Shown here piece by piece: positions 2,926 through 61,718 of a DNA stretch of 64,000 bases. The position numbers were made by a program, and so were the translations under genes. The notes beneath the pieces are model-generated. The model saw nothing but the letters and a program-made list of their open reading frames with translations, made no database searches and had not been told where the DNA came from. The DNA is taken from assembly GCA_023150295.1 (NCBI GenBank), contig JAKLLE010000005.1, forward strand, positions 18,560 through 82,559, written 5' to 3'. This DNA comes from Giesbergeria sp. GTDB lineage: Bacteria; Pseudomonadota; Gammaproteobacteria; Burkholderiales; Burkholderiaceae_C. How positions within the stretch are numbered: position 1 is the stretch's first letter; the number at the start of each line of letters is the position of its first letter.

Positions 2926-4041
2926 TTACTGGTGTTTGACTTCCCAGGAAAGGTAGCCCTCGTCCGCCTGCGCCGCAAGCAACTGGCGCGCGCCCAGAAT
3001 GCGCGCGCCCGAGCCGAAGCCCACAGCCTTGAGCTGCTTGCCCAGCACGCGCTGTGCCGCCTCGGCCGCGAACACGCCCGTTTGTGAGTAGGCGCAACTG
3101 CCACGCAGGATGACGCTGACAGACTGCGTGTTGCCACGCGCCTGGCACGACACCATCCCACGATGCAGCTCTGGTGTCTCGCGCGGGGGTTCAACCTGCG
3201 TCACCTGCTGACCGATGGTGTTGGTTACCTGCTCCTGCGCTGCGGCATCCAGGTGGCGATAGTCCTTTTCAAACTGCTGCAAGATGCCTAGCACGGACAT
3301 CATCATTTCCTGGTTGCCGAGGGCAAACAGCACCTGGCAGTTCTTGACCCGCGCATCGCCGTGGTACCACACAGGCTCACCCGCACCGCCCCAGGGCATG
3401 CCTTTCAAGACGCGATGCACGCCGGGCACAGACACGTCGTACGCCTGCGCCCAGGGCCACTGCACTAGTTCGCCGTTCTGCAGGTAGTACATGGGCTTGG
3501 TGCACATGCGCAGGAACGACATGGTCGAGGCCACGCTGATTTGGGCATCGCCGTAGTACATCAGATCCAGCGAGTCGATACCTGGGGTTTCCAGTGCGAT
3601 TTCTGCGGCAATCGCACCTTCGGTCCACATATAGGAATTGGCCGGGCACAACGCCAGTTCCTTGCGTTCAAAGGCAGCGCCATACTCTTTCTGCAGGAAC
3701 AGCATCCAGTCGGTTTCACCCGTGGTGTCAAAGTAGTGGCAGCCTGCGTCCAGGGCGGCCTGTACCACCGGCTCACCCAGTTGCATGAAGGGCCCGACAA
3801 TGTTCAGGACCAGTTTTTTGCCACGCAGCAATTCCGTCAGGCTGGCTCGGTCATGCGCCACGCCCACGCACTGGTAGTCATGGCCTTCGAGTTCGGGAAT
3901 CTTGGCCATCTCGGCCTGCAGGCGCGCGGCGTTGCGTCCAGCGGCAATGAAGGGAATGCCGCGCTGCGCGAGCTTCCACGCGGCAAGCTTTCCGGTGTAG
4001 CCACTGGCGCCGTACAGAACGACTTGGTATTGCGATGCCAT
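2926..4041 (-). CDS. Saccharopine dehydrogenase-like NAD(P)-binding (trans-acting enoyl reductase type) protein
   Basis: MASQYQVVLYGASGYTGKLAAWKLAQRGIPFIAAGRNAARL N-terminal Rossmann motif. Confidence 0.8.
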   Translation of the reverse strand: MASQYQVVLYGASGYTGKLAAWKLAQRGIPFIAAGRNAARLQAEMAKIPELEGHDYQCVGVAHDRASLTELLRGKKLVLNIVGPFMQLGEPVVQAALDAGCHYFDTTGETDWMLFLQKEYGAAFERKELALCPANSYMWTEGAIAAEIALETPGIDSLDLMYYGDAQISVASTMSFLRMCTKPMYYLQNGELVQWPWAQAYDVSVPGVHRVLKGMPWGGAGEPVWYHGDARVKNCQVLFALGNQEMMMSVLGILQQFEKDYRHLDAAAQEQVTNTIGQQVTQVEPPRETPELHRGMVSCQARGNTQSVSVILRGSCAYSQTGVFAAEAAQRVLGKQLKAVGFGSGARILGARQLLAAQADEGYLSWEVKHQ

Positions 4042-59841: not shown

Positions 59842-61374
59842 TCACACCAGCAAACCTTCTGGCGACAGATAGCGCTGGCGCCATTCCTCGAAAGGCTGGC
59901 TGTCCGCCGCTTCGATGGCCTGCTGGTCGCTCAGCGACTTGCGGGCCATGGCCTCGTACTGCGCCTGCTGGTCGGCCTGCCAGGGCCGCTCCATCAGCGC
60001 ATCGCGCGCCGCCAGCGACTGCGACAGGCTGAAAGCCGAGAAGCTCTGTCCATGCGCGGCCTCCATGCGGTCGAGCACGCGGGCCGATGGGGTGTCCGCA
60101 GGGCGCCCCAGCAGCGCCTGGGCCTCGCGCAGCGCGGCGCTGTAGTCGCCGCTCTGGTGCGTGGCGTCCAGAGCTGCTGCCAGGGGTTCGCATTCGGCCA
60201 GGATCTGGCCGCCCCACTCCACCAGCGGCACATCGCGCCCCTGGCGCTGCAGGCACAGGCCGCTCTCGCGCCCGCGCTCCGCGGCCAGAAGCTGGTTGGC
60301 GCGCAGTTCGGCAATCTCGGCCGGGGTGTCGGGCGGGCTGTCGGAAAGCAGACAGTGCAGCAGAAAGACATCGAGCAGGCGCATGGTGGACGCCGTGATG
60401 CCCACGGGCACGAAGGGATCCAGATCCATGAGCCGCACTTCCACGTATTCCACCCCGCGCTCGCGCAGTGCGTGCAGGGGCCGCTCCCCGGTGTGCACGG
60501 TGCGCTTGGGGCGGATGGTGCCGTAGAACTCGTTTTCGATCTGCAGCAGGCTGGTGGCGAGCTGGTTGTAGTCACCGCCAGGGTTGCGAATGCCCACCGT
60601 TTCGTAGGCTGGGTAGGGCTGGGTCAGCGCTTCGTGCAGCGAATCGGCGTAGCCCTGCAGGCCGTTGTAACTGACGGCCAGCGAGGCCTGCGCATCGCTC
60701 TGGTAGCCCAGGCGCCCCATGCGCAGCGAGGTGGCATGAGGCAAATACATGGACTGCCCCGCTGCACCCAGCGGCTGCAGGCGGTGCGTGCGCCCTTCCA
60801 CAAAACAAGGGCACAGCGCGGGCGATGCGCCAAACAGGTACAGCAGCACGAAGGCATGGCGCCGGAAGTTGCGAATGAGCCCGAAGTAGTCTTCGTTGGT
60901 CACCCCCGGCAAGGACCAGTTGTAGTGGATGCCCGAGATGGTCTGCATGCGCCGCCCGTAGCGGTGACCCAGGCCCATGCGGTACACGCTCTTGGCGCGG
61001 CCCACATTGGAGTTGCCATAGCGCGCCAGCGGAATCGTCTCGTCCGTGGGCAGGTTGCAGGGCATGCTGGCCACCCACAGCATCTCGCCGCCCTGGGGCT
61101 GCAGCACGCGGTACACGTACTGGTGGATGGCGGTGAGCTCGTCCAGGCAGTCCTGCACACCCCTGTGCGCGCCGGTGATGAGCTCGATCTGCGATTCGCT
61201 GTAGTCGGTGGTGATGTGCGGGTGCGTGAGGGCCGAGCCCAGCGCCCCAGGGTGCGGCGTCAGGGCCAGCCCCCCGGTGGGCAGCACGCGCAGGCCTTCT
61301 TTCTCGATCCCCCGGCGGATGCCCGCCAGGCGGTCGGAAGAAAGCTGCTGGATGCGTTCCTGCAAGGTGTTCAT
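59842..61374 (-). CDS. gshA: Glutamate-cysteine ligase
   Basis: GIEKEGLRV...DYSESQIELITGAH...SGIHYNWSLP...YVEVRLMDLDPFVPVGI. Confidence 0.92.
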   Translation of the reverse strand: MNTLQERIQQLSSDRLAGIRRGIEKEGLRVLPTGGLALTPHPGALGSALTHPHITTDYSESQIELITGAHRGVQDCLDELTAIHQYVYRVLQPQGGEMLWVASMPCNLPTDETIPLARYGNSNVGRAKSVYRMGLGHRYGRRMQTISGIHYNWSLPGVTNEDYFGLIRNFRRHAFVLLYLFGASPALCPCFVEGRTHRLQPLGAAGQSMYLPHATSLRMGRLGYQSDAQASLAVSYNGLQGYADSLHEALTQPYPAYETVGIRNPGGDYNQLATSLLQIENEFYGTIRPKRTVHTGERPLHALRERGVEYVEVRLMDLDPFVPVGITASTMRLLDVFLLHCLLSDSPPDTPAEIAELRANQLLAAERGRESGLCLQRQGRDVPLVEWGGQILAECEPLAAALDATHQSGDYSAALREAQALLGRPADTPSARVLDRMEAAHGQSFSAFSLSQSLAARDALMERPWQADQQAQYEAMARKSLSDQQAIEAADSQPFEEWRQRYLSPEGLLV

Positions 61375-61385
61375 GGTGCTCAGTT

Positions 61386-61649
61386 GTGTAGGGTTTCGCT
61401 CTGATTGGTGCTTTCAGAGCCCCGAAAAAGTTGCACGGCTAGGCGCAGTGCGCAGGCAATGGTGGTGCCCTTGCCAAGCGCTGCAACGACGCTGTGCGGC
61501 TTTTTCGGGGCTCCCTTCGGGCCAGCGGCCAAGGGGCCATCTGCGTTGTTGCAGCGGCTTGACGTAACCCGTTATGCCTGCGCCCCTGCGCCTAGCAGCT
61601 GACCCCTTGGCCGCTGGCTGAAAGTACCAATCAGAGCGAAACACTACAC
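61386..61649. repeat. Two-lobed structured element with 32-bp terminal inverted repeats
   Basis: TIR 61386-61417 / 61618-61649 (30/32 matches); lobe A stem AGCCCCGAAAAAG(61418-61430)/CTTTTTCGGGGCT(61500-61512); linker CCCTTCGGG; lobe B stem CCAGCGGCCAAGGGG(61522-61536)/CCCCTTGGCCGCTGG(61603-61617). Confidence 0.88.
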
Positions 61650-61718
61650 CAGTTCAGGGGCCGGAACTTATCACGCCAAGAGCAGACCCGCGCTGCGGCA
61701 GGTCATGGCCCCACCTGC

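Follow-up and report, generated by a model that had tools for sequence, protein, structure and literature searches.

MITEs are usually viewed as deletion remnants with an unimportant interior. Some that end like IS630 or IS5 and target TA- or CTAG-type sites have been described before (PMC2229807, PMC3189936). The element analysed here shares its non-autonomy, IS630-like terminal inverted repeats (TIRs), and insertion at TA with RUP of Streptococcus pneumoniae and other IS630-related MITEs (PMC2229807), but RUP has a length of 107 bp and a TIR that is short (9 bp in the table of PMC2229807), as opposed to a span of ~264–270 bp, a pair of lobes with a linker, and covariation across the phylum in the present case. 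The CIR repeats of Caulobacter and Brucella likewise combine two inverted-repeat arms with a linker, a terminal TA, and an alphaproteobacterial spread, whereas their published description gives ~110 bp, lists no TIRs, and places GANTC in the loop, which sets our element apart (PMC2229807). Correia/NEMIS, ERIC, and YPAL are also small MITE-like repeats with stable folds and mostly TA ends, but their stem-loop arises from pairing of the ends, with no arms or linker (PMC2229807). MITEPsy1 of Pseudomonas syringae, another MITE, is probably IS5-derived, inserts at CTAG or YTAA, and has been shown to transpose; however, it comprises 100 nt with an 18-nt TIR and a 4-nt duplication, and a two-lobed module is not described in the available text (PMC3189936). 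Finally, REPIN/RAYT systems resemble it in having inverted hairpins that occur in pairs, scattered over intergenic regions; the present element differs from them by its DDE-type ends, its TA duplication, and the lack of a RAYT association. No description of the two-lobed, TIR-bearing design, of its spread through the phylum, or of its association with two transposon end types was found in the open-licence literature.

The element (61386–61649, 264 nt) was located in the window, i.e., the 64,000-nt stretch of Giesbergeria sp. DNA that was analysed, and is a palindrome in which 32-bp inverted repeats surround two convergent hairpin lobes of ~100 nt and a CCCTTCGGG linker (Table 1). The nested design put forward in the initial annotation was recovered by an inverted-repeat search, which returned the outer arms and the stems of both lobe A (61417–61439/61491–61513; 23 nt, 87%) and lobe B (61521–61544/61595–61618; 24 nt, 92%). 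The same search showed the common core to recur in inverted orientation in the two lobes (61479–61492/61543–61556), in line with the earlier view that the lobes are inverted copies of each other. A covariance model of the lobe (R1), built from an alignment of 31 diverse lobes, assigned the two window lobes scores (Table 1) well above the 15 bits of the window's best chance match. Upon folding of 61380–61655, both strands were very stable (–180.1 kcal/mol and z = –12.4 for the plus strand, –167.8 kcal/mol and z = –12.2 for the minus strand), with 0 of 200 shuffles equally stable on each strand. The element has no coding capacity for a transposase, and is short, multi-copy, and TIR-bounded.

Table 1. 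Parts of the two-lobed element and its surroundings (window coordinates).
Feature	Position	Strand	Basis and remarks
Left TIR	61386–61417	+	GTGTAGGGTTTCGCTCTGATTGGTGCTTTCAG; 32 nt, 94% complementary to 61618–61649 (inverted-repeat search); matches the IS630-type TIRs of L262 and L277–L282
Lobe A, ~100-nt hairpin with bulged core CTAGGCGCAG...CTGCAACGACGC	61418–61512	+	R1 match 61414–61514 (+), 92 bits, E 9e-19
Linker CCCTTCGGG, potential mini-hairpin	61513–61521		Sequence; linker statistics of 67 elements
Lobe B, inverted hairpin with the same core and unrelated stem sequence	61522–61617	-	R1 match 61521–61620 (–), 86 bits, E 2e-17
Right TIR	61618–61649	-	Inverted-repeat search
Left flank TCAGTT	61380–61385		With the right flank, target-site remnant of an old insertion
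Right flank CAGTTC	61650–61655		Sequence
gshA (glutamate--cysteine ligase), neighbour outside the element	59842–61374	-	TIGR01434, E 5e-149

The initial annotation had placed the element directly upstream of gshA. The identity of the gene was confirmed, and the element indeed lies upstream of it on the minus strand, on which gshA is encoded, with 11 nt between it and the ATG. On its other side, the element faces the end of an SDR-family gene that has the orientation of gshA. The gshA leader next to the element (61375–61385) reads CAACTGAGCACCATG, while that of an element-free relative (L067) reads CTGCGGAGCACCATG, and it follows from this comparison that a GGAG ribosome-binding-like motif is lost beside the insertion.

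Mobility, one of the possibilities raised in that annotation, was borne out by multiple copies, empty sites, a TA duplication, and ends common to IS630 transposons. Three full copies (93–100% identity) are present in the own genome, matches occur in 14 of the 27 genomes of the genus (about 17 full-length copies altogether), and relatives with the same TIR include Acidovorax sp. 210-6, Simplicispira lacusdiani, and a Giesbergeria MAG. At the gshA site itself, a close relative (G012, 97% identical beside the site) has no element and an empty site reading CAGTTCAAGTTCAGG (L067), whereas in another (G007, 98% identical) only collapsed TIRs remain. When the joined flanks of 12 copies were searched against three close genomes, about a dozen junction-spanning matches were obtained. 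Upon alignment, TA was duplicated at L032 (CCCC-TA-GGATA), L021, L167, and L166/L212, and TG at L002; the junction at L162 resembled TAA, and those at L019, L033, and L164 were ambiguous. One apparent empty site, that of L166 in G007 (L202), was discarded, as it is a deletion between CACA microhomologies that left 13 nt of TIR and not a virgin site. Most copies examined are flanked by CTA...TAG/TAA, pointing to a TA target within CTAG-like sites, while the flanks of the window copy (TT...CA) show that its TA duplication is no longer intact. Tenzen and Ohtsubo reportedly found in 1991 that IS630 prefers TA in CTAG.

Deletion derivatives were also encountered, with a single lobe (L051), a truncated core (L050), or TIRs alone (L055, L058). 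A further copy (L025:1501–1769) is chimeric, with the left stem of lobe A followed by the core and the right stem of lobe B; template switching or recombination involving the two lobes would be expected to give such a product. At L051:2483–2882, only a few bases separate the one-lobed member of the window subfamily from an element of a different subfamily (TIR CTAGGGCGTGTCATCATTC) that has both lobes and is complete, and the sequence of the latter is multi-copy in G012. Two decayed half-elements of G019 (L049:1695–1804 and 3352–3480) are ~1.5 kb apart, and between them no transposase was noticed, but what we read as the start of a response-regulator gene. TIR-less lobes, including one tandem same-orientation pair, occur in three genomes of the genus (L046:5051–5225, L047, and L048), just upstream of a gene that we take to be YqeY-like; this was the sole cluster of lone lobes seen at an orthologous site. 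In one genome (G127), many contig ends lie 20–180 nt from a lobe, suggesting that assemblies are interrupted at these palindromes and that drafts underestimate the copy numbers. BLAST searches yielded no plasmid match to the whole window element and no phage match to the related elements L162 and L308.

A TIR search of annotated plasmids revealed a 1.17-kb element on a Polaromonas sp. P1-6 plasmid (L262:4001–5176), with ends beginning CTAGTGTAGTGTTTCA and a gene for a 359-aa DDE_3 transposase of IS630 type (PF13358, E 1e-17). The first 16 nt of the 32-nt ends of our element are identical in this IS630-family transposon. Homologues of its transposase were present in 106 of 401 family genomes, in elements that often have CTAGTGTAGTGTT ends, some of which can be aligned to almost the entire window TIR. 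Family IS630 ends such as GTGTAGTGTTCCATTCTGTTTGGAACTTA reached alignment scores of 16–19 (four long ends), as compared with maxima of 10–14 in 1000 shuffles per comparison. A second end type, GGGCCTGTTCACACTATT, forms the TIR of the two-lobed elements L167 and L173 as well as the TA-flanked ends of IS5-family transposons in Burkholderia gladioli (DUF4096 + DDE_Tnp_1) and Paraburkholderia phymatum (DDE_Tnp_1). On an Azotobacter plasmid (L314:315–1742), an IS630-family element abuts a two-lobed element, with CTAG common to both.

The data support a non-autonomous element with IS630-type ends and a TA duplication: its TIRs match those of autonomous IS630-family elements, TA or TG is duplicated at five loci for which empty alleles were compared, and the TA target lies within CTAG in most copies examined. 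A cognate transposase in the same genome is usual but not required for an IS630-derived MITE, and the own genome (a draft assembly) yielded neither a DDE_3 match nor a protein homologous to that of L262, implying that the active partner is missing, has been lost, or resides elsewhere. DDE_3 (IS630) presence was not correlated with lobe copy number. Moreover, seven lobe-rich genomes contained no autonomous copy with GAGCC/GGGCC-type TIRs at both ends, and convergent pairs of such TIRs were either ~250 bp apart or collapsed.

R1 matches were obtained in 108 of 151 sampled family genomes (up to at least 26 per genome) and in 90 of 399 genomes sampled across Pseudomonadota, including other orders and classes. 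Outside Burkholderiales, a search by DNA similarity and then R1 located the design on plasmids of Pseudomonas aeruginosa, Halomonas, and Azotobacter, while 50 kb of Sinorhizobium pSymB, searched with RIME repeats in view, gave no R1 match. Throughout, the design recurs as a 31-bp TIR, a lobe, an 8–9 nt linker, an inverted lobe, and a TIR (about 270 nt in total), although a family-wide search showed that between genera only the lobe core is common, with stems and TIRs differing in sequence. All 67 lobe pairs among the collected loci were convergent, in + then – order and each with a TIR, with linkers of 6–10 nt (most commonly CCCTTCGGG or CCCGAAGGG) and spans of 262 to 298 nt (mostly 265–276). 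Clustering of 36 representative TIRs at 65% identity resulted in about 18 clusters, all beginning with G, some of which match IS630-type and others IS5-type transposons. A comparison with Rfam, at gathering and E-value thresholds, returned only chance microRNA-like matches at the element and no score above any gathering threshold.

The compensatory variation that had been deduced from the two window lobes holds across genomes. Two-sided changes affected 29–30 of the 33 lobe base pairs (29/33 in a MAFFT alignment of 31 diverse lobes), and among 139 distinct lobes, in an alignment that was fitted to the model and therefore leans towards structure, 94.8% of cells were paired (vs. 57.8% in shuffles and 36–43% in slid controls). 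MAFFT alignments of the 31 lobes and of whole genus copies agreed with this pairing result. For the whole element, 22 pairs with two-sided change were counted among genus copies, vs. 9 in shuffles and 2–4 when slid. Among the first 61 lobes, which include many related ones, one core position showed perfect covariation (TA with NA, AA with NC). As for the earlier proposal of selection on structure, the underlying covariation is strongly supported, but it does not separate selection from palindrome correction. A wobble test on 47 independent stems counted 14 G–T vs. 8 A–C (p = 0.29); the raw counts leaned to G–U, but this excess was not significant once related stems were removed. Since the lobes have opposite orientations, either strand can fold, and no significant strand preference was seen, a fold in DNA (with a role in transposition) or arm-to-arm correction would fit these data at least as well as RNA regulation.

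It is conceivable, though rather unlikely, that the element is an ordinary MITE without structural selection, whose fold is a by-product of template switching or intrastrand repair copying one arm to the other. The lack of a strand-specific wobble bias agrees with this, as do the covariation running through the TIR and not the lobes alone, and two-sided changes in recent genus copies, where the inner part of the TIR reads GATTGGT, CATGAGC, or AATTAGC and is matched on the other arm. Such copying would nevertheless leave unexplained why the bulged core (C-TAG/AAG-GCGC...GCAAC) is near-invariant, and why lobe length, +/– order, linker, and span are constant across the phylum.

We further doubt that the fold acts in RNA, with stems in read-through transcripts being cut by RNase III or insulating neighbouring genes, as the lobes occur in both orientations in every two-lobed element, no strand preference was detectable, no Rfam family was matched, and relatives lack the element at the same locus. 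This reading nonetheless draws on the very stable RNA fold, on several copies in leaders or intergenic gaps (gshA; the CaiB leader on a P. aeruginosa plasmid), and on the precedent of the Neisseria NEMIS/Correia repeats, for which an RNA-level role of this kind was proposed (PMC2229807).

The initial annotation had also considered a REPIN-like pair, each lobe of which would be recognised by a RAYT (Y1) transposase. Although the element does form one unit with two inverted hairpins and RAYT-like genes are common in these genomes, Y1 and lobes were not associated among 151 genomes (both in 81, lobes only in 27, Y1 only in 32, and neither in 11; Fisher p = 1.0), the lobe-rich G012, G051, G072, G075, and G112 are without Y1 matches, and the ends and TA duplication match DDE transposons, rendering this reading very improbable. 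That the element is a cis-regulatory RNA of gshA, as its start 11 nt from the ATG and on the gshA strand might suggest, is scarcely credible, because it is not conserved at gshA in close relatives (the site being empty in G012 and collapsed in G007) and its other copies adjoin unrelated genes.

In our preferred reading, which we consider probable, the element is a MITE mobilised in trans by an IS630 transposase, with a two-lobed fold that matters most likely at the DNA level. It would be a protein-less DNA transposon, for which an IS630-family (Tc1/mariner-type DDE) transposase may recognise the ~31-bp TIRs and insert the element at TA within CTAG-like sites. Its interior, as the covariation shows, is a conserved module in which two bulged hairpins face each other across a short linker. 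Either single strand can therefore fold into a cloverleaf, a four-way junction whose stem consists of the two TIRs paired with each other. Most likely, this fold, single-stranded or extruded as a cruciform, would join both TIRs and favour persistence or movement of the element, with the arms perhaps being kept matched by arm-to-arm correction. TIR matches establish that this module is also found between IS5-type and other ends, so it has probably been exchanged among ends and mobilised by at least two kinds of transposase. More tentatively, the elements may represent phylum-wide structured parasitic DNA, i.e., an old cloverleaf module that repeatedly swapped TIRs and used unrelated DDE transposases (IS630- and IS5-type). 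The bulged core of this module would probably be a binding site for a host or transposition factor, and its pairing would have been kept to a far greater extent than its sequence.

The internal plan, with its pair of bulged lobes, linker, and fixed spacing, is conserved across the phylum and across transposons with unrelated ends, and the element offers a testable case of either selected DNA structure in a selfish element or large-scale palindrome correction. It also cautions that strong covariation in bacterial intergenic alignments need not signal a regulatory RNA. Finally, the covariance model provides a ready annotation marker for hundreds of unexplained intergenic palindromes.
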